Shown: positions 36,201 through 52,559 of the stretch, piece by piece | How positions within the stretch are numbered: the stretch's first letter is position 1 | How the letters are laid out: every line of letters begins with the position of its first letter | Assembly (NCBI RefSeq): GCF_000447795.1 | Contig: NZ_AUNI01000009.1 | Coordinates: 372,001-436,000 of the forward strand | Length of the DNA stretch: 64,000 nucleotides | Reading direction: 5' to 3' | Source: Bacteriovorax sp. Seq25_V | GTDB taxonomy: Bacteria > Bdellovibrionota > Bacteriovoracia > Bacteriovoracales > Bacteriovoracaceae | Notes under the pieces: model-generated | What the model saw: the letters and a program-made list of their open reading frames with translations, nothing else | Told to the model about the DNA's origin: nothing | Database searches by the model: none | Made by a program: the position numbers and the translations under genes

Positions 36201-36650
36201 CTCGAAGAAGTTGAACGTATTGATCAGTTAATTAATGACTTAGTAAAAAAAGAGCATGAATTTTCTATCTTCAATAATAAAACTCAAAAGCTTGAGACTA
36301 AAGTTCTTGGTCTTGAGCATATTATGGTCGTGGCTCCTTATAATGCACAAGTGCAACGATTAAAAGATAAACTTCCTGATGGAGTTGAGATAGGAACAGT
36401 TGATAAGTTTCAAGGTCGAGAGGCTCCTATTGTTATTTACTCTGTGACAACATCAAGTCCTGAAGATGCTCCACGTGGAATGGATTTTCTTTATTCGCAA
36501 AGTCGATTGAATGTAGCATCAAGTAGGGCCCAGTGTTCTTTTATTATGGTTGCGAATAAAGAAATTTTTGAGCCTTCATGCAAGAGTCCAGCGCAGATGA
36601 AGTTAGCGAATGCTTATTGTCGGTTTCTTGAGTTTTCTTTAAATAGATAA
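33249..36650 (+). CDS. TM0106-type RecB nuclease fused to RNase H-like and SF1 helicase domains
   Basis: The 1133-residue protein starts with a PD-(D/E)XK Cas4/RecB-like nuclease (GRSDVL, ALDTKLSRETKAG, QLCLYSEM). Cysteines C near 23 and CDVCRWWESC (about 221-230) suggest an Fe-S cluster. A YprB-type RNase H-like domain follows (LFFDIEGDTFVGRHGIEYLL at about 320). The C-terminal half is an Upf1/Dna2-type helicase: GPPGAGKSYTG, LFIDEGGQLS, KTFRLHPGICKF, VDKFQGREAPIVI, SRLNVASSRAQ. It may act in DNA repair or anti-phage degradation. The second ATG at 33258 could be the start. Confidence 0.85.
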   Translation: MVIMQKKDDKFILSAGDINGFLNCKRLTELDTLVANKELIAPEFSNPHLKIMQERGFEHEKSYVDYLIEQGLSFESAEVGVGEDGYQKTISLMKKGVDVITQGVLRLDGWYGRSDVLKKVLMKSKLGDYSYIALDTKLSRETKAGSILQLCLYSEMLEEIQGILPEVMFVITPEDDDTFNEECYRVDDYQAYYRLVKSKLLESLGNIQAYPEPVGHCDVCRWWESCSKRRRDDDHLSIVANITKSQRKDLESIGINTMKAFASANIDDFKKLPSGTNLRSLELSKEQARVQVQARESGELVSEFMPFEDGRGLSRLPEPSAGDLFFDIEGDTFVGRHGIEYLLGLTYFDNGSQKYQGFWAIKPSLEKQAFTELMEFILQRNREFPDFHIYHYAAYEPGAIKRLAQRYSIYEEEVDNLLRADKFVDLYGVVRQGIRASVEKYSIKDLEAFTGYERKIALNDMIIHKRALEHNLELSRYDDINEAMINAVQLYNQDDTDSTLVLRNWLEKKRSEAIDAGNEILRPEAPELNVSEEIRERDQRLIDIKNALIAGIDFDSDLSREEEVKVLLGDLVSFYRREEKVALWELFRLRVMNEAELLEDKSGLAGLQLKERVAPTGRARTYTDVYTYPYQEADFRSGDEIFECGGVKVGTLVEYNPYERTVRVKKTAATNDLHPTSIFRFSIVRANELEESSIKVCEEIIENGMTDKKYKAIKDILLKKNPDCSVQIQVPENSSVLDHAYNIVSSLDSSYLPIQGPPGAGKSYTGSHLIQHLLKQGKKVGVSAISHKVINGLLTSTKKLVGDEFQIIHKVSDQTVEYDYRVTKKNPDCEALANGEEPVLIGGTSWLFARDGMEQTLDYLFIDEGGQLSLANLLSISRSAKNLIILGDCQQLEQPIQAAHPDGADLSALEYIQGESATIPEDKGLFLAKTFRLHPGICKFNSELFYENRLYSTEGNEGQNVTGPMNLKPLMYLETVHTGNSNYSLEEVERIDQLINDLVKKEHEFSIFNNKTQKLETKVLGLEHIMVVAPYNAQVQRLKDKLPDGVEIGTVDKFQGREAPIVIYSVTTSSPEDAPRGMDFLYSQSRLNVASSRAQCSFIMVANKEIFEPSCKSPAQMKLANAYCRFLEFSLNR

Positions 36651-36792: not shown

Positions 36793-37734
36793 GTGATATT
36801 TTTAGCCGCTAATCTTTTTAGTGATATTTTACAAAAAGTAAAAAAGAGTAAGACAGATGTGACTATTTTTAGCCCATATGTAAAAATATCGGTACTTAAA
36901 GAATTATTAGGTTTTCAAAGCTCACGTCTTAAAAGATCTATAGTCATAAATCTCTCTGTGCAGAATATAGTAAATGGTTCGATCGATCTTGAAGTGTTAG
37001 AATACTGTATTAATAATAATATCAAAGTCTATGTGAACAATGATTTACATATGAAAGCATATATCTATGATATGGAATCTGCTCATATTGGTTCAGCAAA
37101 TTGTACTAATTCAGGTCTAGGGACAAACGAAACACCAAACTTGGAATTACTTATATATACAAATGAGCTTCCACTTCACTTCCTCTATTATTGTAATCAT
37201 ATTATACACAAGTCCAGGCTTCTATCTTTGGATGATCTAAAAAGAATATATCAGATCATTAATGACTTAGAAATTCCGAATACTAAGATTCAAGAAGTTG
37301 AGCTCATTTTAAAGAAGGATGAGCCTCTCAAAATCTTAGCATCTGAGTTACCACACACTAGTAATGTAGATTCTATTTTTTTCTATATAAAGAACGGTGA
37401 AATACATGAAGACGAAAGCTATATTTTACACGACATCTATATGTTTGATCTTCAGAATTTAAACGCTTCTAGTTTGAATGAATTCAAGAAGAAGCTAGAA
37501 TTTAGGCTTTTTGAACATCCATTCCTAAAAATGATATTTGATTCTTTTAATGAATCTATAAATTTTGGTATGATTCGAAGGCTTCTTGAAAAAAAATGTG
37601 AGGATGATCCTAGACCATCGAGAATTGATGTTAACGTTTTGATAAACAACCTAATTAACTGGATAGAATCTTTTGACAGTGAAAATTATGAAGTTATTCA
37701 ACCCAATCATACTAAAATATTAAGGAAGAAATAA
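36793..37734 (+). CDS. Phospholipase D-like nuclease protein
   Basis: The GTG start after AAGGA gives 313 residues. One HKD motif is clear: HMKAYIYD…AHIGSANCTNSGLG (about 96-118), so the protein is a PLD-superfamily enzyme that would dimerise for a full active site. Such single-HKD proteins act as nucleases in defence systems. The C-terminal half is unassigned. It begins the five-gene run to 44169; one base separates it from the TerB-like gene. Confidence 0.75.
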   Translation: MIFLAANLFSDILQKVKKSKTDVTIFSPYVKISVLKELLGFQSSRLKRSIVINLSVQNIVNGSIDLEVLEYCINNNIKVYVNNDLHMKAYIYDMESAHIGSANCTNSGLGTNETPNLELLIYTNELPLHFLYYCNHIIHKSRLLSLDDLKRIYQIINDLEIPNTKIQEVELILKKDEPLKILASELPHTSNVDSIFFYIKNGEIHEDESYILHDIYMFDLQNLNASSLNEFKKKLEFRLFEHPFLKMIFDSFNESINFGMIRRLLEKKCEDDPRPSRIDVNVLINNLINWIESFDSENYEVIQPNHTKILRKK

Positions 37735-37735
37735 C

Positions 37736-38542
37736 ATGGAGAAAATCGACATATATTTACGTGTTTGGTCTCTGTTACGCGTTTTTTTCTATTTGGAAAA
37801 TAAAAGAACAGCTAAATCTATAATGCGGTTCAAAGAGATATTAAAACGTTGGAATCTAGGAGAAGATGCTTACGAAATCGGATTCTTTGGAGAAGAGCCT
37901 TTTGAAAGAAGTTTAGAAGCAACCTATAAGGAAGTGAATGCTTTTTCACAGGATCTTTTGATTGGGATGGATGAAGTTGTTTTAACTGTTTTGTTCTCAG
38001 ATTTATGTGACGTTATATATTCTGATGGAGAAATTGGAGAACATGAAAAAGAACTTTTGAACATCCTGAAGAACAATTGGAAATCGGTACTAGATAAAGA
38101 GCTTGACTCTGTTTTAAAAATTCAGCCAGGAGAAAACATATTGCCTCAGAATTCTCTTGTTGCTTTGGGGTACCTTTTTCTTATAACGATGAAGTCAGAT
38201 GGGGTTATTGATAAATCAGAGATATCTAAGTTAAGGGCAAATTTAAAAGTATGGAATAATGAAAATGCAAGATTAATACTTGCTGCAATAAATATTGCGG
38301 AAAATGCTGTTGAGTCAAATGATATTCTAAAGATATTTGAGGAACAAAGCTACTTTAATGATGAGATTAAAAATCTAATAGTGCGTTGTTTAGAATATTT
38401 AAAGGAAAATGAATATGTTGGTGTTCGTAGAATCATGTACCAACAATTGATGGGCGTGATTTTGGCAGATAGCAAGATACATAATAACGAAAGATGGATA
38501 AGAGAAAAAATCAGAGAGATTTGGGATGATATCGAGGGATAG
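37736..38542 (+). CDS. TerB-like protein
   Basis: The 268-residue helical protein has three acidic SDG/ADS loops: VIYSDGEIGEHEKELLNIL, ITMKSDGVIDKSEISKLR and VILADSKIHNNERWI. This is the metal-binding loop of the TerB/TerB-like fold, possibly in tandem. TerB proteins are partners in membrane or nucleic-acid stress systems and occur with helicases in defence operons. It directly abuts the helicase gene (no gap). Confidence 0.7.
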   Translation: MEKIDIYLRVWSLLRVFFYLENKRTAKSIMRFKEILKRWNLGEDAYEIGFFGEEPFERSLEATYKEVNAFSQDLLIGMDEVVLTVLFSDLCDVIYSDGEIGEHEKELLNILKNNWKSVLDKELDSVLKIQPGENILPQNSLVALGYLFLITMKSDGVIDKSEISKLRANLKVWNNENARLILAAINIAENAVESNDILKIFEEQSYFNDEIKNLIVRCLEYLKENEYVGVRRIMYQQLMGVILADSKIHNNERWIREKIREIWDDIEG

Positions 38543-40246
38543 ATGTATAAAAAATTAGAAGATTTACTTTTAAAATGCCCTTTTGAGCATCTTCAAAAAG
38601 CGCTAGGTGAAGAGATTATAAATCTTGCAGAATATATTAACGATGACTTGACGCCACGTAAGTTAGTTGGAGTTACTATAGGAGGATTTGGAAAATCGAT
38701 TTTAGAATTAAAAGAAGTACGCTTTATTTTATTAATTAACAATTTGAAGAGTAACGAAATATTAGATTTAGGAAATAGTATTAAGTTGTCCGAGGCAGAC
38801 CCCGCGAAAATGGCTTTGCTGATTGCTAGTATTCCATTTTCAGTTAACATCAAGACTAAAAAAATATTGGAGGCTCTTGGTTTAAGTGATGATTACATGC
38901 CAAAGTTAAAATCTTCAGTAGAGAGTGGGCAAGAAAAAATTTATAAAGATAAAAATAGTTTTCTCTATGAGCAGCTAGATTATCAGTATGACATAAGACG
39001 TAGATTGATTAGGCATTATAGACAAATTTCTGGTAGTCGTGCTCTTATTCATATGCCAACAGGGGCGGGAAAGACGAAAACTGCTATGCACATAGTTCAA
39101 GAGTTATGGCGTTATGATTACAATTCGACTGGATTCGTATTGTGGGTTGCTCACTCTGAAGAGCTATTAAGGCAAGCTACTGAGACCTTTAAAGATGTTT
39201 GGAGATTTCTTGGCCAGTTCGATGTAGAAATTATCAATCTTTGGGGAAAGTTCGACTTGCCGGAAGAACTACCTGAAAATGCAATTATTTTTGGTGGTAT
39301 TCAAAAACTACAAGCAATTGCCAAGAGAAGTGGAACGGAGATTAGTAAAATTAGTGAGGGATTAAATCTTGTTATTGTAGATGAATGTCACAAAGCCCCA
39401 GCTTCTAAAACTTATGATCTATTATCAACCCTACTAAATAGTAAAAATGTATTTAATAAGTTTCCCAATCTCTTAGGTTTAACTGCTACCCCTGGAAGAG
39501 CAGGAGGTTATGATATTGAAGACGTTAAATTAAGACATTTATTCGAGAATATAAAAATAGGTATCAATATTGATTTAATGAATAATTATGATCCTGGCTT
39601 TGAACATGCTACAAATGCTATTGAGTTACTCCAAAGGAGAAATATTCTTTCTACTTTTTATCGAGATCCCATACATCTAAGTATGGATGATTTAAACTTA
39701 TCACCCAGCGAGATAAATTCTTTGAAAAAATCATTAGCATCAGATGGTGAAAAAGAGATTTCTTCAGAGGTAATGAATAAAATTGCGAATAACAAAAAAA
39801 GAAATAAGTTGATAATTGATAAGCTTTTAGATTTGGAAAAAAATGGAGTTAAAACTATATTTTTTGCTTGTAATGTCAATCATGCAAAAATGATTACTGC
39901 TGCTTTATATTTAAACAAGGTCAAGGCTGGTTTAGTTCTTGGTGAAACAAACTCTGTAGAAAGAGAAGATGTTATTTCTGCATTTAAAGACAACGAATCA
40001 GATATGAAAATTTTGATTAATGTAGGAGTACTTACTACTGGCTTTGATAGCCCTAATATTGACTGTGTTTTCATTGCTCGTCCTGTCTCTTCAGTTATTT
40101 TATACAGTCAAATGATTGGCCGGGGAATTAGAGGAAAACTGATGGGAGGAAAACCTGTATGTAAGCTAATTGATGTTATAGATAATATAAACTTTGGTGA
40201 TGAAAAATGGGCATTTAATTATTTTGATTCATATTGGAAAATTTAA
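38543..40246 (+). CDS. SF2 DEAD/DEAH-type helicase
   Basis: The 567-residue protein has an N-terminal helical domain of about 150 residues and then an SF2 core. Motif I is MPTGAGKTKTAM, motif II VDECHKAP, motif III LGLTATPGRA and motif VI YSQMIGRGIRG. The C-terminal lobe is FDSPNIDCVFIARPVSS. The layout is like the type III/I restriction helicases. Coupled to the TerB and GHKL genes, it may move along DNA during restriction of unmodified DNA. Confidence 0.88.
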   Translation: MYKKLEDLLLKCPFEHLQKALGEEIINLAEYINDDLTPRKLVGVTIGGFGKSILELKEVRFILLINNLKSNEILDLGNSIKLSEADPAKMALLIASIPFSVNIKTKKILEALGLSDDYMPKLKSSVESGQEKIYKDKNSFLYEQLDYQYDIRRRLIRHYRQISGSRALIHMPTGAGKTKTAMHIVQELWRYDYNSTGFVLWVAHSEELLRQATETFKDVWRFLGQFDVEIINLWGKFDLPEELPENAIIFGGIQKLQAIAKRSGTEISKISEGLNLVIVDECHKAPASKTYDLLSTLLNSKNVFNKFPNLLGLTATPGRAGGYDIEDVKLRHLFENIKIGINIDLMNNYDPGFEHATNAIELLQRRNILSTFYRDPIHLSMDDLNLSPSEINSLKKSLASDGEKEISSEVMNKIANNKKRNKLIIDKLLDLEKNGVKTIFFACNVNHAKMITAALYLNKVKAGLVLGETNSVEREDVISAFKDNESDMKILINVGVLTTGFDSPNIDCVFIARPVSSVILYSQMIGRGIRGKLMGGKPVCKLIDVIDNINFGDEKWAFNYFDSYWKI

Positions 40247-40257
40247 AGGAAGGATTT

Positions 40258-41988
40258 ATGTCGAATATAATAAATATTAAGAACTATACTGATGCTTTAA
40301 GAAACACCGGTTATCGAAATGTGGAGAGTGCTATCGCTGAAATTGTTGATAATAGTCTAGAGGCTGACGCATCAGATGTTCTCATTGTTTGCTCCTTAGA
40401 TTCTTCGAGTGGTAGAAGAGGGGTAGAGGAAATTGCTATTCTAGACAATGGCATAGGAATGGATATAGAGACGTTAGAGAAATGCCTTGTTATCGGAGAA
40501 AGTACTAGAAGAAGTCGAAAAGGAATGGGACGATTTGGGGTTGGATTACCACAAGCCTCGCTTCATGTTTCTCCTCGAGTAGAAGTATATTCATGGCAAA
40601 AATGTGGAGACATACGACTTGTATATTTAGATATTGAAGCTATTAAATCGGGAAAACAAGAGAATGTTGGCTATGAAGATTTAGCTGAGATTCCAGCAAA
40701 GTATAGAAAATATATGACCAACTTTAATTTTAAAGGGAAAAAAATGGACTTCTCTGAGTCTGGTACCCTCGTTATCTGGAAAAACTGTGATAGGTTAAGG
40801 CCTAGAACTGTTGCTCCATTATTCGATAGGTTTAAGTTTTTACTGGGAAGGAAATTTAGATATTTTGTTCATGAGGGTAAGCACAATATTGGCCTAACAG
40901 TCTGTGAATCATCAGAATATGATGAGTTATTAAAGCCTAATGATCCTCTGTGTATAATGAATGATAATATGATCTTAGGTGATTTAAACGATCCCAAGCA
41001 AATAAGAGGTGATGGTGAACCAATTTTTGAGTATTGGGAAAACGGTGATGTTTGCGGAGAAGTAAATTTGAAAATTCCTTATCTAGACAAAGGGGGCAAT
41101 AAAAAAAATGGCACAGTGACAGTAAAGTTTAGTTGGGCGAAGTCTGACTTTCACCAAGCAGGCGGAGAGAGTCAAATTGGTAAATTTATCAAAAAAAATG
41201 TTGGTGTTTCAATTGTAAGAGCAGGGAGAGAAATTGATTTCGGAAAATTTGATTTCTTTTCTGATGTAAATGAACCACAACATCGCTGGTGGGGGTGTGA
41301 GGTGAGTTTTGAGCCGGAGCTAGATGAAGTTTTTGGTGTTGCAAATAATAAACAGCAAGTAGAATTATTTGAACTTGATGGTGATGATTATATTGACGAA
41401 GAGATTAAACCCGTATGGTTTACTTTGAATGACTTAATTAATAAGGAAATTTCAAACATTTTTAAAGCTTTGAAAGCGAGAAAGAAAGGAACAAGGGCAG
41501 CTGTCAAAAAGACTACTGAAGAGCAAATTGTTGCAAATGTAGAAAAAGATAATAATACAACAACGGCTTCAAGTCACTTCAAAAAAGAAACTTCCACTGA
41601 GGACTTATTAAAATTAGCAAAAGAAAATTTAGTAGATAATGGGATACCTGACCCAAGTGAAGAAGAGCTAAAAGAGGCTTTGTCTGTCCCTGTAAAAATT
41701 CAGTATAAAGATCTTGGGGACAATTCTACCTTTATAGAAGTTAATAGTAAAATGGGAAACACTTGGCTTACCATAAATACGGGTTCAATTTTTTATCGTG
41801 ATCTTTATTCTAAACTAGAGAACTATGATGAATCAGTTAAAAGAGCATTAAATTTAATACTTATGGCTTATGCAAGAGCAGAGGATGAAGCTTACAATAA
41901 TAAAACATTGTATGAATCATTCCATGACGTGAGAGAGCAATGGGGAATCAAGTTGAGAAAATACTTAAAAACTGATTATCAAGCTTAA
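40258..41988 (+). CDS. GHKL (HSP90/MORC-type) ATPase
   Basis: The start is the ATG at 40258 after AAGGAAGG. The 576-residue protein has the Bergerat ATP site: IAEIVDNSLEADASDVLI (N box), ILDNGIGMD (G1) and GMGRFGVGLPQAS (G2). This is a MORC or HSP90-like ATP-gated clamp. The C-terminal half contains a linker of charged residues and a compact domain (WLTINTGSIFYRDLYSKLEN). In the operon it may clamp DNA or act as a switch between sensing and cleavage. It lies 12 bases after the helicase and 12 before the DUF262 gene. Confidence 0.85.
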   Translation: MSNIINIKNYTDALRNTGYRNVESAIAEIVDNSLEADASDVLIVCSLDSSSGRRGVEEIAILDNGIGMDIETLEKCLVIGESTRRSRKGMGRFGVGLPQASLHVSPRVEVYSWQKCGDIRLVYLDIEAIKSGKQENVGYEDLAEIPAKYRKYMTNFNFKGKKMDFSESGTLVIWKNCDRLRPRTVAPLFDRFKFLLGRKFRYFVHEGKHNIGLTVCESSEYDELLKPNDPLCIMNDNMILGDLNDPKQIRGDGEPIFEYWENGDVCGEVNLKIPYLDKGGNKKNGTVTVKFSWAKSDFHQAGGESQIGKFIKKNVGVSIVRAGREIDFGKFDFFSDVNEPQHRWWGCEVSFEPELDEVFGVANNKQQVELFELDGDDYIDEEIKPVWFTLNDLINKEISNIFKALKARKKGTRAAVKKTTEEQIVANVEKDNNTTTASSHFKKETSTEDLLKLAKENLVDNGIPDPSEEELKEALSVPVKIQYKDLGDNSTFIEVNSKMGNTWLTINTGSIFYRDLYSKLENYDESVKRALNLILMAYARAEDEAYNNKTLYESFHDVREQWGIKLRKYLKTDYQA

Positions 41989-42000
41989 AATGGAGTTTAG

Positions 42001-44169
42001 ATGACAACAAAATATGATAAATTTAAAATTAAAGACCTAATTGTTGAAACGCTAAATGAAAAAATTGTTTTACCAAATTTTCAACGTGACTTTATCTGGA
42101 AGGTAGAACCACAACAGAAGAAATTAATTGCATCAGTGATTCTCAAAATGCCAATAGGAAACTGGTTGTTTTTAATGGGAGAAAAGAAGTCATTTAGCTT
42201 TAGAACTGTTGGACAATCAGATTCTAGATTTGAAAATTCGAATACAGAAGAGGTTAAATTCCTCTTAGATGGTCAACAAAGATTGAGTACTATCTGCTCC
42301 TGTTTCTCAGATTTGTATTTGGAGGGGAAGGGATCTGAGGATGGAGAGTGGGAACTAATTCATGAAAAGACATTTTTAGGTCTTAGAAATAGATGGTTTC
42401 TAACTCTACATAATAAGAATAATGAAAATTTACAGGAATTTGGGCTACAAAGTTTTAACTTTAATGATTTAAATGGAATGGAGCCTTTTGATTTATTCGA
42501 TAATTTAGAAGTATTAAAGGTGAATAATAAAAATAAAAACAAAGCCGGTCATCCGTCATTGGGAAATGACTACCCTGGAGAAGCAGGCGAAAAACTTGTA
42601 AAATATTGTGTTGAAAATTACAAGTTCCCGCTTTATTTAGTTAACGGTCAACATGATTTTCTAAAAAATAGAATAATTGATGGCATTGCAGACAGGCGCT
42701 TCAATGAAATGAAAGATTCGGACTATGCGTGGAAAAAAAAAGAAGCATTTATTTCGATTATGAAGAATACTCGTGTTGTATCCCCAAAAGAGGTTGATAA
42801 GGTTCTCGAAGACAGGGATGTTTTTATAAAAAAGCTTAAAGGTTTAAGTGATGTATGGGCAGATAAACTTAAAAACTACTTTAAAGAAATTATGATTGAA
42901 GAGGTCCCGGTTACTCTTTTACCCATTACCGAAATCGAAAGAGCAGCTTCAATTTTTGATACAATGAATACCGCAGGAACCCCATTAAGTACTTTTGACT
43001 TATTTTCTGCAAAATGGGCAAAATCATCCGAATCAACTCTTGGTGAGAATATTCGGCAAAGTCTTGAGAAGCTCGAAGAAGAGGCAATACCAAGTTTCTT
43101 TTTGAAGGATTTGCAGAGTAAAAAGAAGCTCACTTTTGACAAAATGAACTTAACTTCATCTGATGATAGTCGCTCACTTGAAAAGGTTATTAAAGATCAG
43201 TTTCTTAATTTATTATCTTTAAATAATACGAGGGCTGAGAATTTAGAAAATAATGAATACAAGAGAAACGAACTTGAGGCAATTAAGAGAACAACAATAC
43301 TACAGCTTAATACATCTCAAATTGATAAGGTTTACAAATGCACAATTCAAGGGCTCTATCGTGCTAACTTATTTTGCTTTTATAGGTTAGGCATTGGTGG
43401 AATAATAAACTTGCCATATACATTAATGATTCTACCAATTGCTATCCTATTAGCTGAAGATAAAAATTGGAATTCAGAAAAAATTGTTGCAAGAGTTGAA
43501 TTATGGTATTGGGTTTCTATATTCAGTGGACATTACAGAGATTCTCAAAATAGGAAAGCGATTGAAGATATAGAACATTTGCAAAAATATTCTAGTGGCG
43601 ACGTTAAAAATTTTGAAAAGAGAAGAGAGGATATATTTAAAAATAATGGTTATTCAAAATTAGAGAACTTCTTACCATTTGATGAAAAAACTGGAATGCG
43701 AGAAATGGATTTAGATTCATGTCCTGGAGCAATAGTTAGCTCCTTCCTAGCGTTTCAATTGAGAAAAACACCTCGATTCATTATAAAGAATACTAAAAAA
43801 ATGAATATAATTGATACGATTGACGATAAACTAGAGAAACACCATTTAATACCTCTGGGCTCTACAGTTGACAAGTTCACAAGCAGTACCTCAAGCCTAA
43901 GAAAAGATAAAAATAATATTTTAAATTCAGTTCTAAACTTAGCATATGTTACGAGCTCAGAAAATCGATCCATTAGCGATATGAAAATTAACGAATACAT
44001 AAAAATAGATAATTTTCCTTTATCAGATTACTACTTACAGGACAAAATTTTTAAAACTGAGGACTGGAAATCTAAGCCTACAATATATCAAGCATTAAAA
44101 TCTAGATTTCATGCATTTGAAGATGCAGTGAATAAACATTTAGTCGACTTAGAGAATACCATTGATTGA
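42001..44169 (+). CDS. DUF262-HNH protein, SspE-like restriction factor
   Basis: The 722-residue protein starts with the DUF262 NTPase (LPNFQRDFIWK; FLLDGQQRLSTI, the DGQQR signature). The C-terminus is a DUF1524/HNH-type nuclease: LEKHHLIPLGS followed by NLAYVTSSENRSISDMKI. This is the SspE/GmrSD form. SspE senses phosphorothioate on host DNA and nicks phage DNA. It is the last of five coupled genes and stands just upstream of the ssp modification genes, so a PT-linked restriction role is likely. Confidence 0.85.
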   Translation: MTTKYDKFKIKDLIVETLNEKIVLPNFQRDFIWKVEPQQKKLIASVILKMPIGNWLFLMGEKKSFSFRTVGQSDSRFENSNTEEVKFLLDGQQRLSTICSCFSDLYLEGKGSEDGEWELIHEKTFLGLRNRWFLTLHNKNNENLQEFGLQSFNFNDLNGMEPFDLFDNLEVLKVNNKNKNKAGHPSLGNDYPGEAGEKLVKYCVENYKFPLYLVNGQHDFLKNRIIDGIADRRFNEMKDSDYAWKKKEAFISIMKNTRVVSPKEVDKVLEDRDVFIKKLKGLSDVWADKLKNYFKEIMIEEVPVTLLPITEIERAASIFDTMNTAGTPLSTFDLFSAKWAKSSESTLGENIRQSLEKLEEEAIPSFFLKDLQSKKKLTFDKMNLTSSDDSRSLEKVIKDQFLNLLSLNNTRAENLENNEYKRNELEAIKRTTILQLNTSQIDKVYKCTIQGLYRANLFCFYRLGIGGIINLPYTLMILPIAILLAEDKNWNSEKIVARVELWYWVSIFSGHYRDSQNRKAIEDIEHLQKYSSGDVKNFEKRREDIFKNNGYSKLENFLPFDEKTGMREMDLDSCPGAIVSSFLAFQLRKTPRFIIKNTKKMNIIDTIDDKLEKHHLIPLGSTVDKFTSSTSSLRKDKNNILNSVLNLAYVTSSENRSISDMKINEYIKIDNFPLSDYYLQDKIFKTEDWKSKPTIYQALKSRFHAFEDAVNKHLVDLENTID

Positions 44170-44203: not shown

Positions 44204-44244
44204 AAAATTACCCTAGAAAACACAACACACTCTAGGGTAATTTT
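44204..44244. promoter_or_regulatory. Perfect 14-bp inverted repeat, likely operator
   Basis: AAAATTACCCTAGA (44204-44217) and TCTAGGGTAATTTT (44231-44244) are exact reverse complements with a 13-base spacer. It ends 5 bases before the ATG of the LexA-type HTH gene. It lacks a clear terminal U run other than TTTT, so it may serve as operator rather than terminator. A second half CCCCAAAATT occurs just upstream. Confidence 0.75.
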
Positions 44245-44249
44245 GCAAC

Positions 44250-44486
44250 ATGTTACATCCACTTTCTGAAAGGCAACAAGAAACGCTTAGGATAATTCAC
44301 GATCACATTTGTGAAAAAAACTATCCTCCAACGATTCCAGAGATTCAAGAATACTTAAAAATAAGTAATCCTGGAGCTGTTCACAAGTGCTTCATCGCAC
44401 TAGAAAAAAAAGGTTACATAATAAGACATAAAGGAATGCATAGAGGCCTAGACTTGACACAAGAGGCCAGGGAGTTATTGCAATGA
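44250..44486 (+). CDS. LexA-type HTH regulator (DNA-binding domain only)
   Basis: The 78-residue protein corresponds to the LexA N-terminal winged HTH (LSERQQETLRIIHDHICEKN; YPPTIPEIQEYLKISNPGAV; LEKKGYIIRHKGMHRGLDL). The protease domain is absent, so it cannot self-cleave like LexA. It overlaps the sspB gene by 4 bases. Likely autoregulator of the ssp operon through the inverted repeat before it. Confidence 0.85.
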   Translation: MLHPLSERQQETLRIIHDHICEKNYPPTIPEIQEYLKISNPGAVHKCFIALEKKGYIIRHKGMHRGLDLTQEARELLQ

Positions 44487-45361
44487 GATTTGGAGCACAC
44501 CAAACTTTCCATTTAAGAGATAGCTGGTTACTTAAAGGCTATGACGCAGTAGTAGCTGACGAAAAAATCTTTAAAAGTAATAACTCAGTTGAGACGCTTG
44601 GCGTTGGTAAAAATATGGTTGAGGCCATAGAATATTGGATGACTGCTTTAAGTCTTTTAATTAAAGATGATAGCAAGTATTATTTAACAGAAATTGCTCA
44701 AGAAATTTTTACTAATGATCAATTCTTAGAACTTGATGGATCTCTACTTACTCTTCACTACCTTTTAGCGTGTAATGTAGAAAATGCAACCTCATTTCAT
44801 TGGTTCTTTAATAAGTTTGCTGCTACTGAATTTGATACAGAGTCACTACAAGTATACTTAGAAACTTACGTACAATCATTAGAAAAGAAAATTAATCCAA
44901 ATACTCTAAAAAAAGATATCAGTTGTATTCTTAGGATGTATAAGGAGCCTATCTATAAGGATAAGGTTAATCCGGAAACTGAAAATCCATCTCCCTTCGT
45001 AAAGTTTAATCTTGTTACGGAGGAGAATAAAAAACTTAAGAAAAACAAATTGAGAAAATCGGATATTCATCCATTGATTTTCGTTTATTTGACTTATTTG
45101 TTTTGGAACGATGTTCTTATGCAAGCAGAGTCATTTAATTTGAGTGAATTAGTTAATAAAGAACTCTCTCCAGGACTTATCATGGGATTCTCTGAAGATG
45201 ATGTCGTACAAATTATTGAAGAGATAGAACGACTCTACGGAGATAAATATATGACATACTCACGTACTGGTGGATATTTTATTTTAAACTTAAAATCAAA
45301 AACAGCAGCAAAATCATTGGAAAATTATTACCAAGAATTTACTACAAGGTTAGGATACTAA
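44483..45361 (+). CDS. sspB: DUF4007 protein, SspB
   Basis: The 292-residue protein shows the DUF4007 pattern: FGAHQTFHLRDSWLLKGYDA at the start, then LGVGKNMVEAIEYWMTAL and FHWFFNKFAATEF. SspB is the DNA-nicking component of single-strand phosphorothioation. It is overlapped by the HTH gene and followed one base later by the large ATPase, the normal sspBCD order. Assignment rests on this order and motif set. Confidence 0.85.
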   Translation: MRFGAHQTFHLRDSWLLKGYDAVVADEKIFKSNNSVETLGVGKNMVEAIEYWMTALSLLIKDDSKYYLTEIAQEIFTNDQFLELDGSLLTLHYLLACNVENATSFHWFFNKFAATEFDTESLQVYLETYVQSLEKKINPNTLKKDISCILRMYKEPIYKDKVNPETENPSPFVKFNLVTEENKKLKKNKLRKSDIHPLIFVYLTYLFWNDVLMQAESFNLSELVNKELSPGLIMGFSEDDVVQIIEEIERLYGDKYMTYSRTGGYFILNLKSKTAAKSLENYYQEFTTRLGY

Positions 45362-45362
45362 G

Positions 45363-48300
45363 ATGTCTCAAACTTCATTATTCAATACAGATGTAATCAA
45401 ACTAGCATCTAGCTTTAATAGATCTACTAATCTTGAATTAGATTATAAAAGTGGAAACAAGTTAAGCGATATTTTTATAACACCAAAATTCTCATTAGGC
45501 ATGACTGAAATTCTTGGTTCAATTAGTGAGGAAAACTCGAATCAACGTGTTAGAGTTCTTTCTGGTTCTCCAGGTCTTGGTAAATCGACATTTGCTCTAT
45601 TAATGTCAGCAATCGTTTCGAAGAAAAATCCACGTGTTGTAAAAAAAATGATTGAGGCAGCCGCTGATTCAGAACTGCTAAATTTATATAACGATTTTCA
45701 AAAAAGTAAGAATACAAAATTAGTGCCTGTTTTCTTAAATGGTTACCTTGGAAATATCGAAGACGCATTTATTGAAAAGTTGAAAGATGCTTTCCAGGAT
45801 GTCGAATTAGAAAGTGAATTATCTAAAGTCCTTCAAAAGTCTTCAAAGAAATATTGGGCCATAGTAGACAAATGGAATAAAGATTATCCAGAGATCTATG
45901 AAAGTTACTTAAGTGAAGTTGCGGTTGAATGTGATTCTGTTGATGAGTTCCAAAAATCTCTGAGAAAAGGTCATGTATCAGCACGTGAAATATTTGAAAG
46001 AATTTATTCAAAAGTAACAGGTGGTGGATCTCTAGCACTTAAGGCTAATAACGATGTTGTTTCAATTTATAAAGAAGCAATTACACTATTACAAAGTAAT
46101 GGATATAATGGAATCTTTGTTGTTTATGATGAGTTTGGAAAATATCTTGAAAGAGGTATTCACAACCCATCTGCACTTAATATTCAATTCCTCCAAGATT
46201 TTGCAGAGTTTTGTGACAGATCTGGTCAGGCACAATGTCACTTAACTTTAATAACTCACTTGTCAGTGTCTCAGTATGCCAATCAACTACCAATAAATAT
46301 CCAGAAGGAGTGGGCAAAGATTGAGGGACGTTTTCACGAGACGTCTTTTTATGATAGAGGGACAACTAGTATGGATATGATTTCTCATGTTTTTGAGAAA
46401 AATATTTATGTTGGTGATAAGAATCTTGCAAAAAAAGTTGAAAAATTTAATAAATCATTTTGTGATTCAATGAAAGGGAACGGATTAACAGGTATTGTTG
46501 ATCGAAAAAATTCAGTTGAAGCACTTACTAAGTGTTATCCACTACACCCTGTTACATTAGCGTTTCTTCCTCTACTTTCCCAGAGAGTTGCTCAGAATGA
46601 AAGAACTCTTTATACATTTCTAACTCGAGATGAAGAGTTTGGCTTAAAAAGATTCTTAGATAATGGATTAAGCGAAAAAGATTTAATGTTTTTGATGCCA
46701 TTAGACCTGTATAACTATTTCTCATCTTTAATTGCTAAAGATGTCGGAGTCGGTGGTTCATATAAGGTAAGCTTAATTGTTGAAGAAGCCTTTGGAAAAA
46801 TACCTAAAGAAGACATCGTTGCTAAACAAATAGTTTCACTCATTGCACTGTCTTCTATCGTTAAAAATTACAATTTTGCGCCACTTAATGAAAGTTTTAT
46901 AGTGACTTCTTTTTCCGGAATTTATGAAGAATCGGAAGTTAAAAAGGCAATTAAAACACTGCTAGATAAGAAAGTGTTTTTATATAATAAAATATTAAAA
47001 CAGTACGAATTACAACAAGGTTCAAGTATTGATATCGATGAAGAAATCAATAAATTTAGAGAAATTAAATTAACTAGTAAGGATCTCGTTTCTAGAGTCA
47101 AAAATTATTATAAGACAGATTTTATCACACCTAAAAGATATAACTACCAAAATAGTATCACACGCTTTTGTGATACAGAGCTTATCTCTGTTGAAGAGCT
47201 GAAGGCCGGCAAATTCACTCGCAAGCCAGACTACTATAGAGAGGATGGATTACTATATTACGTAGTTCCTTTCGATCAAGATGAATTAGAGTTAGCAAGA
47301 AGAATTGTTAGAGAAAACAAAGACGAATTAGTGATCTTTGTTCTTCCAAAGACCTTCGTTGAGTGTAAGAGAGATATTGAAGAGCTTAATGCTATCAATG
47401 CACTTTTTGGAAACAAAGATGTGATGAATTCGGGTCCTTTGGTGCGTAAAGAACTTGATCGCCATAAGGTGATAACTATCCAAGCAATAAGATCAGTACT
47501 TGATCCTTTGATTGGTAAGTTTTCGCTTGATGCAGAAGTTTTCTATTCTAAAGAAAGTATGCGTGTTGGTATAAATTCATATGCGGAACTTTTAATTAAA
47601 GTAGGTGAAGTATTTAATTTAGAGTATACCTCATTTGTTCCTTTCAATAACGAAATGATTAATCGTCATAAAGTTTCAGGTAATATCTCTCTTGCTAGAA
47701 AACAAATTATAGATCGTCTTTCGAGTCACCCAGAAGAAAAAAACTTAGGAATGGAAGGAAACGGCCCCGAGGTAACAATCTATAAATCTCTTGTTAGCAA
47801 TTATGGTGTTAATTATAAATCTGACGAGAAAAAATTTACGATTAAAAAGAACAATAAGTTTGCATCACTTCTTTCTGAGTATAAAGAAATTCTTGCAAGC
47901 TATCCGAAAGGACTTGTTGTTCAAAAATTGTATGATACTTTGGTTGCCCCTCCGTACGGTCTAAGAAAATCAATAATTCCTTTATATTTATCAATTTTTG
48001 ATAAGGTTCTTGAGCATCCTGTAAATCACTATTTTGATAATGAATATATTCCTCGTCCAGATGGTGATCATTATGATCTGATGTTAAAGCACCCTAAGAA
48101 TTGCTTCGTAAAGTACACTGAAATCTCTAAGGCGAAATCTGACTATCTTGCTCAATTAGCAAAGGTCTTTGAAGACAAGACAGATTCTCCAACTGTGAGT
48201 AGTGTTATTGAAGCAATATTCAAATGGAAGAAATCTGTTCCTGATTATACTAAAAATAGTGGAAAGCTATCCGTTGAGGAAAAAAAGCTATTAATTTTTA

Positions 48301-49061
48301 TTGAATCTGCTAAAGAGCCTGATAGATTGGTATTCGAAAACTTACCAGATATTTTCAATATTGAACCTATATCAAAGAATACAAGTATCGAGGATATAGA
48401 ACTTATATCTTCTCAATTGATAAAGATAAAGAAGAAAGTATTTGGAGTTTATCCAGAGTTAATTGCTGACCTTCACAAGTTGCTAATTGAATCACTTCAG
48501 TTCTTACAAATTAATTGTTTAAACATAAAGCCTATTTCTTATAAAAAAGGAATGAGCCTAGCTAAGGAGTATCAGGATAATTTAGCACTGCTACCCGAAG
48601 AAATTCGTTCTTATCCATTTAATTCGTTAACTGCAAAATTCCTTGGACGATTAAAGTCTTTTGATTCCACAAAGCATTCTCAATATTTTGTAGAAACAAT
48701 CGCTGATGCTTTAACCGAATCTAATCCACGCTATTGGGCCGAGAAAGGGAAGTCTTTATTTGAGACTAACCTTATTAAATGTAATAATGAGATAGAGATG
48801 GTTACAGAGTTACTTGACTCTGAATTTAGTGGGCAATCTGTGGTCGCCTTTATTAACAAACAGAGTGGAGATAAAGAGTACTTACGACTTGGAGTTTATA
48901 CTGATTCTGGAGAAAATGAGATTAAAGATAGTATCGAAAAGCTACTGTCCTCTTTGAATCCAAAATCTCGTAATAACTTACTTCTATCATTGTTAAAGCC
49001 AATTGAAGAAAATAGCCAATCTGTTGAGATTAAGAATGTAAAAGGAAAATACATTGAGTAA
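45363..49061 (+). CDS. sspC: Large P-loop ATPase, SspC
   Basis: The 1232-residue protein has Walker A (VLSGSPGLGKSTFALL, about 62-77) and Walker B (GIFVVYDEFGKYLE, about 243-256), the signature of the BrxC/SspC-like ATPases. The remainder is a long helical region with winged-helix stretches. SspC is the ATPase of the phosphorothioation complex and works with SspB and SspD. Its end overlaps the sspD start by 8 bases. Confidence 0.85.
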   Translation: MSQTSLFNTDVIKLASSFNRSTNLELDYKSGNKLSDIFITPKFSLGMTEILGSISEENSNQRVRVLSGSPGLGKSTFALLMSAIVSKKNPRVVKKMIEAAADSELLNLYNDFQKSKNTKLVPVFLNGYLGNIEDAFIEKLKDAFQDVELESELSKVLQKSSKKYWAIVDKWNKDYPEIYESYLSEVAVECDSVDEFQKSLRKGHVSAREIFERIYSKVTGGGSLALKANNDVVSIYKEAITLLQSNGYNGIFVVYDEFGKYLERGIHNPSALNIQFLQDFAEFCDRSGQAQCHLTLITHLSVSQYANQLPINIQKEWAKIEGRFHETSFYDRGTTSMDMISHVFEKNIYVGDKNLAKKVEKFNKSFCDSMKGNGLTGIVDRKNSVEALTKCYPLHPVTLAFLPLLSQRVAQNERTLYTFLTRDEEFGLKRFLDNGLSEKDLMFLMPLDLYNYFSSLIAKDVGVGGSYKVSLIVEEAFGKIPKEDIVAKQIVSLIALSSIVKNYNFAPLNESFIVTSFSGIYEESEVKKAIKTLLDKKVFLYNKILKQYELQQGSSIDIDEEINKFREIKLTSKDLVSRVKNYYKTDFITPKRYNYQNSITRFCDTELISVEELKAGKFTRKPDYYREDGLLYYVVPFDQDELELARRIVRENKDELVIFVLPKTFVECKRDIEELNAINALFGNKDVMNSGPLVRKELDRHKVITIQAIRSVLDPLIGKFSLDAEVFYSKESMRVGINSYAELLIKVGEVFNLEYTSFVPFNNEMINRHKVSGNISLARKQIIDRLSSHPEEKNLGMEGNGPEVTIYKSLVSNYGVNYKSDEKKFTIKKNNKFASLLSEYKEILASYPKGLVVQKLYDTLVAPPYGLRKSIIPLYLSIFDKVLEHPVNHYFDNEYIPRPDGDHYDLMLKHPKNCFVKYTEISKAKSDYLAQLAKVFEDKTDSPTVSSVIEAIFKWKKSVPDYTKNSGKLSVEEKKLLIFIESAKEPDRLVFENLPDIFNIEPISKNTSIEDIELISSQLIKIKKKVFGVYPELIADLHKLLIESLQFLQINCLNIKPISYKKGMSLAKEYQDNLALLPEEIRSYPFNSLTAKFLGRLKSFDSTKHSQYFVETIADALTESNPRYWAEKGKSLFETNLIKCNNEIEMVTELLDSEFSGQSVVAFINKQSGDKEYLRLGVYTDSGENEIKDSIEKLLSSLNPKSRNNLLLSLLKPIEENSQSVEIKNVKGKYIE

Positions 49062-49893
49062 TATATTTGATTTGAAAAACTTTTCATATGATCCTAGTCG
49101 CAGGCAAATCTGCCCTTTATCTGGAGGGAAAGATTCTACGGCTTTAGCAATTTTACTTAAGGGAAAAATTCCAAACCTTGAGTATGTTTTTACAGACACA
49201 GGAGCAGAGCTTCCCGAAGCATATGAATATTTAGATAAGCTTGAAGCATTTCTTGGGCAGCCTATTGTTAGGCTTAACTCAGATAAGACATTTGATTTTT
49301 TATTACAGAAACATGGTAATTATTTACCTTCAGCACGAGCCCGTTGGTGTACAGCTGAGATGAAAATTAAATCGTATGAGCGTTATATAGGTGATGACTT
49401 AATTGAGTCTTACGTTGGAATTAGGGCCGATGAAAATAGAGAAGGTTATATCTCTGATAAGCCAAACATTTCACCGCGATACCCATTTAAGGAATATGGT
49501 ATTGACCTTGCTGGTGTAAATCAGATTCTTGAAGACTCTGGAATTGGGATGCCTAAGTATTATGAATGGCGTTCTCGTTCTGGCTGTTACTTTTGTTTTT
49601 TTCAAAGGCAAATTGAGTGGGTTGGTCTGAAAGAAAGACATCCTGATTTGTTTGAAAAAGCAAAAGAATATGAGAAGCGCGGATATGTTGGGGAAGGTCG
49701 AAACTTCACATGGGTTAATGGAACCTCTCTTGAAGAAATGGAAGCTCGCTCTGAAGAAATAAAGCAAAAGCATGAAGAAAAAATGGAGAAGGCTAGAATT
49801 AAGGCCTGTGGAAAAAAAGATTTATCGGATATCTTCACTGATGTCGTAAATGATGATGACGGAGAAGATGCCTGCTTAATCTGTGACTTATAA
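49054..49893 (+). CDS. sspD: PAPS-reductase-like sulfurtransferase, SspD
   Basis: TTG start after AAAGGA; 279 residues. The PP-loop is CPLSGGKDSTALAI (about 20-32), followed by FTDTGAELPEAY and ARWCTAEMK. RSGCYFCFFQ and the final CLICDL give further cysteines for a possible Fe-S cluster. SspD (DndC-like) activates the DNA backbone for sulfur transfer using ATP. It overlaps sspC and its end overlaps the convergent methyltransferase by 6 bases. Confidence 0.9.
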   Translation: MSNIFDLKNFSYDPSRRQICPLSGGKDSTALAILLKGKIPNLEYVFTDTGAELPEAYEYLDKLEAFLGQPIVRLNSDKTFDFLLQKHGNYLPSARARWCTAEMKIKSYERYIGDDLIESYVGIRADENREGYISDKPNISPRYPFKEYGIDLAGVNQILEDSGIGMPKYYEWRSRSGCYFCFFQRQIEWVGLKERHPDLFEKAKEYEKRGYVGEGRNFTWVNGTSLEEMEARSEEIKQKHEEKMEKARIKACGKKDLSDIFTDVVNDDDGEDACLICDL

Positions 49894-51381
49894 CTTTTTT
49901 AACTGATGACCTTTAATTATAAACCCTTCTTCCTGTAGGAACTTTTCCCAGTTTAGACGAGTTCCTATATGATTGTGTCCTAGAAGGCCAAACTTCTCTT
50001 CTTTCAAAGTCAATTTCTTGAATTTATCAAATAATGGGTAGTCTTCATCTATAAATGTATCTTTTCTGTGTAGTATTGGTGGATTTTCTCTCTGTCTAAA
50101 TTCCCAGAATTTTACATTGTTTTTTGGGATATCCATTACAAGAGTATAAAGAAGAGCTGGATGAGCAATACTATCAAAATCTTCGTATACAAGAAAAGAA
50201 ACTTTGTCTTTTAATTTATTTATCTTTAACAAATTACATTCATCGATATCTCCAACTAGCTTTTTTGCAATACCTACTTTAACTTGGATAGGAGCTGGAA
50301 GCTTATTGATTAGAGATGGATGTATATAAAATGCATCAGGTAGCTGTTTCCCAAGATTACAGGCTCTGAATGATTTTTGCATTACAGTTTGATTACCAAT
50401 TGAGAAAAGAAGATTTTCTGCTTCTCTTTTGCAGTTTGAGTACGTACCCAAAAATTCTTTAATATCTAAAACCATATTTTCTGGTAAGTCAGATTGTTTC
50501 GGGAAGCCTTTCCTGTCAAATTTTCTAAGTGCAAAAAATACAAGTAAGTCAGTGACTCTAGACTGTCGTATTTGTTCTAATCTATCTTGATCAATATTTT
50601 CAAGTAATAAGCTTTTGACCTTTGTCTTACTTTTGAACTCTCTGATTAATTCTTTATAAGAGGAGCTTTCTAGATCAGTAGGTAGTCTACCGTGGTTAAA
50701 TAGAAACGAAATAGTCTCTTCGAAAAATGGGGACTCTTTTATAAGTTCTTCTAATTTTGGTTTGAATACTTTGACTCTAGTTCTTTCTTTAGAAATGGGG
50801 TCAATTCTTGTGTAGTCGAGAATTACTGGACGCTTATATCTAGATTGCAAATAATTTAACTTATCTTGTTCATATCTAAAAATGAAAAAGATTCCCGGAG
50901 CGATAGCTATTGCATCTTTATCCAATAATGATTCTAAGTAATTTTTAATTTCTTCTTGTTCATAGTATTTTTGAAATGTTCCTCGAGAAGAGAGGACACC
51001 ATCCCCAAGACTAATGCCTTCGTAACCCTGTTGAATTTTAGTCATAACTGAGACACAAAGGAGTTTATTCGCTAGTGAATATGCTGTTTTGAGAGTCTCT
51101 GATCTTTCATTCGGTTTTTCTATGACATTGAGTACAAAACCAAGATTTACAATATCTGATTTTATATGCTGAGAATCTGGTCGATAATACGGATCATAGC
51201 CTTGAATTTTGGAGAAACCATTCTTTGCAAGAATTGTTAAGTCCTGTCCGTGGCCACAACCATAATCAAAAAAGCTAGATTCTTGAGTTAGTAAATTACT
51301 CTCTAGCAAGAGGGAGACTGGTCTTGAAACCTTATTTCTTTTTATTGCTGTCTTGTGTCGTTCAATATTTATATCTATCAC
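49888..51381 (-). CDS. Phosphorothioation-associated putative methyltransferase
   Basis: The start is set at GTG 51381 (MIDINIERHKTAIKRNKVSR), the family's usual N-terminus; a longer 515-residue call is possible from 51435. The SAM motif is FFDYGCGHGQDLTIL, then IQGYDPYYRPD and LGFVLNVIEKP. This is the family of putative methyltransferases repeatedly linked to Dnd/Ssp genes. Its precise role is unknown. It converges with sspD and is divergent from sspA. Confidence 0.85.
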   Translation of the reverse strand: MIDINIERHKTAIKRNKVSRPVSLLLESNLLTQESSFFDYGCGHGQDLTILAKNGFSKIQGYDPYYRPDSQHIKSDIVNLGFVLNVIEKPNERSETLKTAYSLANKLLCVSVMTKIQQGYEGISLGDGVLSSRGTFQKYYEQEEIKNYLESLLDKDAIAIAPGIFFIFRYEQDKLNYLQSRYKRPVILDYTRIDPISKERTRVKVFKPKLEELIKESPFFEETISFLFNHGRLPTDLESSSYKELIREFKSKTKVKSLLLENIDQDRLEQIRQSRVTDLLVFFALRKFDRKGFPKQSDLPENMVLDIKEFLGTYSNCKREAENLLFSIGNQTVMQKSFRACNLGKQLPDAFYIHPSLINKLPAPIQVKVGIAKKLVGDIDECNLLKINKLKDKVSFLVYEDFDSIAHPALLYTLVMDIPKNNVKFWEFRQRENPPILHRKDTFIDEDYPLFDKFKKLTLKEEKFGLLGHNHIGTRLNWEKFLQEEGFIIKGHQLKKL

Positions 51382-51437
51382 ATTACATTTTATATACGAA
51401 ATGTTACGATTTACCAAGATACTAAGGAGAATCATAC

Positions 51438-52559
51438 GTGATTTATTTAGATTATAATGCTACTGCGCCATATAGTGATTCTGTAAAAAAATATATACAG
51501 GATGGAATGATAAACGATTGGGCAAATCCTTCATCTGAACATGACTTTGGTTTTGAACTTATGAACAAAGTTAAGGACTCTCGTCGTTATATTGCAGACT
51601 TTTTTGGAGTGAGTAGTAGATCCATATTTTTTACAAGTGGAGCAACCGAAAGTATAAATTCTGTTTTATCATTTTCAAATTTAACCAAAAACAATGTAAG
51701 AACAATTATATCTTCTAAACTTGAGCATCATGCAACTTTAGATACGTTGAAACGTTTAGAGAAATCTGGTTTTAATGTTTTGAATGTGAGTAGTAACCAA
51801 TCTGGTCAGCTTGATATCAACGAATTAGAGGACTTTTTAAAAAAAGAGAAAAACGCTCTCGTTTCTTTATTGTATGTTAATAATGAAACAGGGGTGATTT
51901 CAGATATTCCACAAATATCTCGTTTATGTAAAAAATATGATGCTTTAATTCATATCGATGCGGTACAAGCTCTTGGAAAAATGAACTTCAATCTCGAAGA
52001 TTTAGAAGTTGATTTTGCTAGTTTTGCTGGTCATAAAATTGGTGCATTAAAAGGAGTTGGATTACTCTATATAAAGTCTCCAAAGACTTATGAACCCTTG
52101 ATGACTGGAGGAGGTCAGGAAGGAGGTGTGAGGCCAGGAACTTACAATTATCCGGGAATAAAAAGCTTCGAGCTCGCTCTGAGAGATATTAATCCTGAGA
52201 CAATTGAGTCGATTTGTAATTTACGTGCAGATTTTGAAAAACAAATTGTAAGTAATACTTCCTTTGCAATTAACTGTGTCGGTGTACCAAGAGTTGCAAA
52301 CACTACTAATATTTATTTGAATGGTCACGATTCTCGTGCTGTTTTATTAAACCTAAGTAGAAAGAATATTATGGTGAGCTCCGGGAGCGCATGCTCTTCT
52401 GGGAGCTTCGAGCCAAGTCATGTTATTAGAAATCTGGGTTTTGATAAAGAGTATGCTTCTTCGTGTCTTCGAGTTTCCATCGGTGGGAAGACTACTCGTG
52501 AAGAGCTTGCATCCTTCTTAAATGAACTTTTAGTTATTACTTCTTCATTATCTGATTAG
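51438..52559 (+). CDS. sspA: Cysteine desulfurase, SspA/DndA
   Basis: GTG start after AAGGAG; 373 residues. Class V PLP fold: LDYNATAPYSDSVKKY start, SGATESINSVL, the EHHATLDTL region, IHIDAVQALGK and the PLP lysine in GHKIGALKGVG. The catalytic Cys lies in VSSGSACSSGSFEPSHV. It mobilises sulfur from L-cysteine to SspD. Its promoter shares the 56-base gap with the divergent methyltransferase. Confidence 0.9.
   Translation: MIYLDYNATAPYSDSVKKYIQDGMINDWANPSSEHDFGFELMNKVKDSRRYIADFFGVSSRSIFFTSGATESINSVLSFSNLTKNNVRTIISSKLEHHATLDTLKRLEKSGFNVLNVSSNQSGQLDINELEDFLKKEKNALVSLLYVNNETGVISDIPQISRLCKKYDALIHIDAVQALGKMNFNLEDLEVDFASFAGHKIGALKGVGLLYIKSPKTYEPLMTGGGQEGGVRPGTYNYPGIKSFELALRDINPETIESICNLRADFEKQIVSNTSFAINCVGVPRVANTTNIYLNGHDSRAVLLNLSRKNIMVSSGSACSSGSFEPSHVIRNLGFDKEYASSCLRVSIGGKTTREELASFLNELLVITSSLSD

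Follow-up and report, generated by a model that had tools for sequence, protein, structure and literature searches.

A conserved triad of helicase, MORC-type ATPase and PLD nuclease genes linked to the ssp phosphorothioation genes of Bacteriovorax sp. Seq25_V and other bacteria

We describe a gene triad encoding an SF2 helicase, a GHKL ATPase of the MORC type and a PLD-superfamily nuclease, found beside the ssp genes for DNA phosphorothioation (PT) in a 64,000-nucleotide stretch of Bacteriovorax sp. Seq25_V (contig NZ_AUNI01000009.1, positions 372,001 to 436,000; hereafter, the window) and recurring beside ssp genes in other bacteria. In the window the three genes form part of a run of five (PLD, TerB, helicase, GHKL and DUF262-HNH), which an earlier interpretation of the DNA letters alone (hereafter, the sequence-only reading) had proposed as a single PT-linked restriction module. 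Comparative analysis divides that run: the conserved core consists of the three genes and not of the five-gene set, the TerB gene stands beside no other core examined, and the DUF262 gene is separable. The gene content of the locus is established, and the triad combines intact catalytic motifs, MORC and PLD folds and near-obligate linkage to ssp. We think it rather probable that its three products act together as an ATP-driven restriction complex, for which the PT mark set by SspABCD serves as a label of 'self'.

All five open reading frames lie head to tail on the forward strand between 36793 and 44169, where the sequence-only reading had placed them, and the near-gapless spacing and domain calls that it gave hold as well. 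The core genes encode the PLD nuclease (36793..37734; PLDc_2 3e-8), with one HxK-x4-D-x6-GSxN motif, the helicase (38543..40246; ResIII 2e-24, Helicase_C 4e-14), which is of the RadD, type I R or PbeA kind, and the MORC-type GHKL ATPase (40258..41988; HATPase_c_3 2e-21). Between the first two lies the gene of an accessory TerB-domain protein of 268 amino acids (37736..38542; TerB 2.7e-5), and a DUF262 plus HNH effector resembling GmrSD closes the run (42001..44169; GmrSD_N 8e-21). The GHKL frame had been listed from a TTG at 40234, which is probably wrong as a start; the ATG at 40258 is the better choice because AAGGAAGG stands before it, and it leaves intergenic gaps of 1, 0, 11 and 12 bases.

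The association of the triad with ssp genes was examined on plasmids, in genomes and in viral contigs. Searching plasmids with the GHKL protein (tblastn) returned 19 records with at least 80% coverage, and 18 plasmid neighbourhoods were inspected. Helicase, GHKL and PLD genes occur near ssp at 11 of these (L010-L015, L018-L020, L026 and L023); at two more (L016 and L017) the helicase-GHKL pair lies near ssp with another nuclease at the PLD position; L021, L022, L024 and L025 encode more distant GHKL proteins and have no ssp; and one of the 18, L027, came without annotation and was left out of the analysis. The ssp genes are present at 13 of the 18 loci. Scanning 84,980 species genomes with a profile yielded 333 GHKL relatives, the best 80 of which were taken with their flanks and annotated using hidden Markov models (HMMs) built from the plasmid loci, with hand-set thresholds. 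Among these best 80 of 333, the helicase gene adjoins GHKL at 79, a PLD gene lies within 4 kb at 60, and SspB, SspC or a strong SspD match is found at 73. Sixty genome loci have 5 kb or more of flank on each side, and in 58 of them SspB, SspC or SspD is encoded no further than 10 kb from the core. The median distance from the core to the nearest ssp gene is 5.5 bases. All five IMG/VR loci with a GHKL relative also have ssp genes. By the genome, plasmid and IMG/VR counts together, the genes are not usually found without ssp, an outcome that would have told against the sequence-only reading. The recorded hosts belong to Bacillota, Spirochaetota, Cyanobacteriota, Pseudomonadota, Bacteroidota, Actinomycetota, Armatimonadota, Chloroflexota, Gemmatimonadota, Elusimicrobiota and others.

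This linkage is not due to chance, because DUF4007, the SspB family, occurs in only about 2 to 17% of sampled genomes: 7 of 291 in the sample of the window's phylum, and 11 of 398, 23 of 299 and 25 of 146 in samples drawn around other loci (a Bacteroidota sample drawn around G292 repeated the genomes of the G293 sample and was not counted separately). With kinship ignored, pairwise identities of helicase and GHKL proteins correlate at r 0.96, equal to the value for SspB and SspC, and those of GHKL with PLD and of GHKL with SspC both correlate at 0.67. At PLD-bearing loci with enough flank, ssp is present in 47 of 47, and both ssp-less pairs are without PLD (Fisher p 0.044). Such a pattern would arise if the armed module were harmful to hosts without the mark; it is suggestive, not proof, that the triad is toxic in the absence of the PT mark.

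Several variants of the locus are worth recording. Five contigs labelled viral in IMG/VR (L249-L253) carry ssp and GHKL genes, with the full triad in four. Helicase-GHKL pairs with neither PLD nor ssp occur in Microcoleus and Chloroflexota (L084 8334-11794 and L103 8327-11782; also L086 and L097), and L084 and L086 share an unassigned downstream protein of about 200 amino acids. On plasmid L023 (11980-16899) the order is GHKL, a PC4-domain protein of the single-stranded DNA-binding type, helicase and PLD, and the SspD and SspC genes lie a few kb off.

MORC proteins are clamp proteins of animals and plants. The GHKL profile, run against the PDB, gave nine matches at E 0.01, all of them to human or mouse MORC2, MORC3 or MORC4, which puts its sequence nearer to that of MORC proteins than to those of MutL, Hsp90 or topoisomerase VI. 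Its predicted model (pLDDT, the predicted local distance difference test, 86.4) aligns best with MORC3 (Z 21.9 over 300 residues, root-mean-square deviation 3.8), followed by MORC4 and SMCHD1 (both Z 21.4), Hsp90 (19.0) and MutL (18.8); a fold search of the C-terminal part beyond about residue 414 provided little information. Residues E29, D32, N33, D64, G68, G92, G95 and G97 are invariant in 30 relatives. The S5 motif is GVSIVRAGREI in the window protein, with GISVVRAGREL as the consensus; set against the MORC motif GhXhhpXXRhl given by Iyer (2008; PMC2292703), both misfit at the tenth position, a Glu, and fit elsewhere. By its GHKL ATP-binding motifs, S5 domain and modelled fold, the protein belongs with the MORC ATPases.

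The helicase resembles RadD (4e-45) and the PADLOC model of PbeA (2e-17), and its motifs are conserved: Walker A, [ST]ATP and motif VI are found in 81 of 81 relatives and DExH in 79 of 81. In the PLD protein H86, K88, S101 and N103 are invariant across 33 relatives, with D93 and G100 conserved in at least 90%. Residues 1-157 of its AlphaFold model (pLDDT 89.7) align with SauUSI (Z 17.8), Nuc (16.9) and BfiI (15.1). The protein thus has the HxK(x)4D(x)6GSxN motif and, in its model, the Nuc/BfiI fold, and it is predicted to cleave DNA.

The nuclease is the loosest part of the module. In Aminobacter L016 and Agrobacterium L017 the PLD gene is replaced by one matching the PADLOC endonuclease effector model PDLC00735 (7e-10), which we take to be Cap4-like. 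Nostoc loci (L064 7525-8904, L066 7777-8925, L079 7391-8770 and similar ones) have no PLD and carry an HNH_4 nuclease gene, with a helix-turn-helix in L064, upstream of a shortened helicase. In a genome of the window's phylum (L185 2721-6252), genes for a divergent GHKL protein, a PD-(D/E)xK protein and a staphylococcal-nuclease-like protein come in that order, and the group adjoins TIGR04096 and sspABCD, possibly constituting another MORC-type Ssp arm. That Cap4-like, HNH_4 and PD-(D/E)xK nucleases can take its place marks PLD as the cutting subunit.

The PT module itself is complete in the window, where SspB (DUF4007; 44483..45361, forward strand; PADLOC SspB 5e-62, DUF4007 8e-71), SspC (a BrxC-like P-loop ATPase; 45363..49061, forward; PADLOC SspC 7e-151), SspD (PAPS-reductase-like; 49054..49893, forward; PADLOC SspD 6e-110) and the cysteine desulfurase SspA (51438..52559, forward; PADLOC SspA 5e-105) are all unambiguous PADLOC matches. 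By these genes the set is an SspABCD phosphorothioation module, and it is predicted to mark the host DNA with PT. No PglZ or BrxL of type 4 BREX is among the PADLOC matches of the scanned genes, a scan that covered part of the window's open reading frames.

Under the reading that we favour, SspABCD would introduce PT into the host DNA, and the helicase would load onto DNA and then move along it. The MORC ATPase would close around DNA as an ATP-dependent dimer and act as a clamp or checkpoint, and the PLD nuclease, whose single PLD motif per chain implies a dimer, would cut DNA that lacks PT. We infer each of these steps for the triad, from assembly of the complex and translocation through closing of the clamp to PT discrimination and cleavage. 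MORC2 is an ATP-dependent DNA clamp that compacts DNA (PMC12216690), and in R2H2 CglI a PLD nuclease and an SF2 helicase act together, with cleavage on collision (PMC5737866); by analogy with MORC and CglI, it may fairly be inferred that a clamp and a translocase would deliver cleavage. The triad would then follow the logic of DndFGH and SspFGH, in which unmarked DNA is attacked, and not that of SspE, in which the mark activates, and the DUF262-HNH protein would provide a second, independent arm on the SspABCD module that both share in the window.

Several points weigh against this reading. No PT-reading component was identified for the triad. A fold search with the C-terminal half of the PLD protein (residues 158-313) gave no assigned fold, and this half is predicted to be mostly helical, unlike the B3 domain of BfiI and CglI. 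In the Hyphomicrobiales plasmids L016 (10388-14838) and L017 (5705-10107) the helicase has lost the Walker A Thr, DExH and motif VI; translocation is therefore not universally needed, and the degenerate helicase may have turned into a scaffold. Because its seeds were ssp-linked proteins, the GHKL search profile could favour ssp-linked relatives, the correlations of pairwise identities are uncorrected for phylogeny, and the Fisher p for the PLD-ssp association is weak and likewise uncorrected for kinship.

Other explanations of the locus were considered. We give a minor but appreciable probability to a triad that is PT-linked in the manner of SspE, active only on sensing PT in the host and harmless without it. 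SspE itself works by PT-sensing activation (PMC13251355), and the ssp-less helicase-GHKL pairs of Microcoleus and Anaerolineae (L084, L103) indicate that the pair is at least tolerated without PT; these pairs, however, carry no PLD, and a make-up of helicase plus nuclease is nearer to the DndFGH/SspFGH class than to a single-chain sensor. It seems unlikely that the triad stops phage replication without cutting DNA, through a MORC clamp that compacts or stalls phage DNA, even though its helicase is related to that of PbeABCD, reported not to degrade viral DNA (PMC6459918), and MORC2 does compact DNA (PMC12216690), since the invariance of the PLD catalytic residues and the replacement of the nuclease by other nuclease folds imply that cutting matters.

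Two observations could be taken to mean that all five genes make a single machine in which TerB and DUF262 are obligate subunits: their head-to-tail packing, with 0 to 12 bases between neighbours, and the order HEL-GHKL-DUF262-SspB-C-D in Peloplasma L050. We hold such a five-gene machine to be improbable, given that TerB is found at no other core locus examined, a DUF262 or SspE-type gene at only 10 of 80, and DUF262 with ssp but without the core in L186, L205 and L207. Least credible of all, and in our judgement very improbable, is the view that the triad serves repair or defence in general and simply happens to share defence islands with ssp: the likeness of the helicase to RadD and the distant GHKL relatives in other contexts (L021, L022, L024 and L025) speak for it, but island co-residence does not account for linkage at 58 of 60 loci, a few bases away, to a family present in so small a share of genomes.

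The two remaining members of the run fare differently from the triad. The match of the TerB protein to its domain model is barely over the cut-off (24.9 against 24.4 bits). Relatives of the protein were found neither in about 150 fetched loci nor in 72,556 plasmids, and 280 other genomes of the phylum gave one weak match (26%, 9e-12). As it stands beside no other core examined, TerB was rejected as a core subunit, and we propose that it is a lineage-specific add-on in the window; the gene between GHKL and helicase in L023 was considered as a TerB candidate and rejected, being PC4.

The sequence-only reading had called the last gene SspE-like, which holds at the level of DUF262/GmrSD only. The protein has no match to the PADLOC SspE models at E 0.01, unlike the DUF262 protein of L014 (6e-53), and its sole PDB match is 7p9k, a DUF262 domain-containing protein (E 0.006). 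Of its motifs PNFQR and DGQQR, the latter is the SspE GTPase motif, which is kept. The former follows the pattern PxFQR, seen in 9 of 9 members of the window-type DUF262 family against PxYQR in 11 of 11 SspE-type proteins, where the Tyr (Y30/Y63, PxYQ motif) is the PT sensor (PMC13251355). Identity with SspE was rejected on both counts, the failure to match its models and the Phe at the PT-sensing position. Relatives of the window type occur beside ssp without the triad (L186, L205, L207) and with helicase-GHKL (L031, L041, L050, L107, L231). L186, from the family of the window organism, shares SspC (52% identity), the winged helix-turn-helix (wHTH) gene described below, DUF262 (32%) and a 1133-amino-acid nuclease-helicase (48%), and has neither triad nor TerB. 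Since DUF262 thus occurs with ssp without the core, and the core mostly without DUF262 (any such or SspE-type gene in just 10 of 80 core loci), the most probable reading of the window is that two separable effectors, the triad and DUF262-HNH, share one SspABCD.

In the sequence-only reading the ssp genes follow at once, which is not quite so. The genes sspB, sspC and sspD do come next, but the 313-base gap between the DUF262 gene and sspB contains an overlooked gene (44250..44486, forward; LexA_DNA_bind 1e-16) for a 78-amino-acid wHTH regulator made up only of a LexA DNA-binding domain, whose end overlaps the start of sspB by 4 bases and which probably regulates the ssp operon. Upstream of it lies a perfect 11-bp inverted repeat with a 13-base spacer (44207..44241, no strand; ATTACCCTAGA-N13-TCTAGGGTAAT), a putative operator of a kind found in none of 100 shuffles. 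The homologous wHTH gene in L186 (9803-10042) has the same overlap with sspB and is likewise preceded by an inverted repeat of similar shape and other sequence (CTATACCCAG ... CTGGGTATAG; L186 9803-10180), and the repeat looks like an autoregulatory operator that drifted along with its regulator. Scans of the locus for promoters and terminators did no better than shuffles.

Other features lie in or near the locus. Between sspD and sspA, on the reverse strand, is a gene for a DNA phosphorothioation-associated putative methyltransferase (49888..51435; TIGR04096 5e-143, above the cut-off). Directly upstream of the PLD gene, at 33249-36650, lies that of the 1133-amino-acid protein with RNase_H_2 and an AAA_12 helicase of SF1 type; it may belong to the island, because its relative (48% identity) adjoins DUF262 and ssp in the same-family genome L186 (13581-17000). 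A tmRNA gene, a common integration site, is located at 12160-12528, some 24 kb upstream of the PLD gene, and an empty-site comparison with the congeners G045 and G141 gave no usable synteny.

The Ssp effectors described in the literature that we found are SspE and SspFGH. Genes for both are missing from 83.9% of sspBCD loci, according to the SspFGH study, which posed the identity of the absent restriction partners as a question (PMC8092258). We annotated 56 DUF4007 loci from the genome samples, in locus windows of about 20 kb. The core (helicase plus GHKL, strict scores) is present in 10, and at a further three the locus edge truncates it, a pair of these loci being already known to have the core; SspFGH is found in 5, an SspE-type gene in 4 and a window-type DUF262 gene in 4. 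The size of the locus windows, several of them shortened by contig ends, makes all these counts lower bounds. We regard it as an even chance that the triad is an undescribed third Ssp restriction arm, no rarer in these samples than SspE and SspFGH, with a bacterial MORC recognising a DNA backbone mark. For helicase-MORC-PLD as an Ssp partner we found no PADLOC model, and no paper in an open-licence search, subscription papers and preprints lying largely outside it. If the proposal is true, the triad gives a concrete answer for part of the partnerless sspBCD loci (10 to 13 of the 56), connects eukaryotic MORC silencing with bacterial anti-phage defence, and links a prokaryotic MORC ATPase with a single defined epigenetic mark, so that an old guess on the role of bacterial MORCs can be tested directly. 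It also points to a modular PT defence in which the nuclease slot is swappable.

Among known systems, MzaB of MZA is a GHKL ATPase whose N-terminal part is similar to the window protein (NCBIfam MzaB 3e-15), which at 55.6 bits against a cut-off of 850 falls far below membership. Prokaryotic MORC/paraMORC operons, in the accessible text of Iyer (2008; PMC2292703), combine a GHKL-S5 ATPase, an SF2 helicase and a nuclease as the triad does, were proposed as restriction systems, and had HKD nucleases noted among them; that text ties them to DNA methylases and makes no mention of PAPS reductase, DUF4007 or phosphorothioation. CglI and NgoAVII (PMC5737866, PMC4267653) resemble the triad in having a separate PLD nuclease and SF2 helicase that cooperate with NTP hydrolysis, and differ in being methylation-based, in their B3 DNA-binding domain and in a published complex without a GHKL subunit. 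Closer in the mark that they use are the PbeABCD and CxC-ABC ATPase-DndE systems (PMC6459918, PMC10853773), which are PT-linked and have an SF2 helicase and a PLD nuclease. Pbe, however, comprises a PLD-helicase fusion, a CxC ABC ATPase, a DndE-like protein and a Dnd partner, whereas the triad has PLD as a separate gene, a GHKL ATPase and an Ssp partner, and identity with PbeABCD was rejected on the separate PLD and helicase genes and the GHKL nature of the ATPase.

With regard to the Ssp effectors, the sequence-only reading was right to propose a PT-linked restriction arm that is neither SspE nor SspFGH. SspE (PMC13251355, PMC9646914) shares with the DUF262 gene of the window the DUF262 and HNH domains, the DGQQR motif and the position beside ssp, and is set apart from its product by the SspE HMMs and the PT-sensing Tyr. 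SspFGH of Vibrio anguillarum FF-93 consists of a Walker A ATPase, a protein of unknown kind and an FtsK-like protein; no SspF, SspG or SspH match was returned by PADLOC for the genes examined, nor by L017-derived HMMs in the window, and this identity was rejected too. The two sets stand side by side in Agrobacterium L017. Like the triad, SspFGH is a multi-gene arm paired with SspBCD and compatible with a DUF262-type arm, namely SspE; it damages DNA without PT (PMC8092258), and the same logic of attack on unmarked DNA is the one proposed here for the triad.

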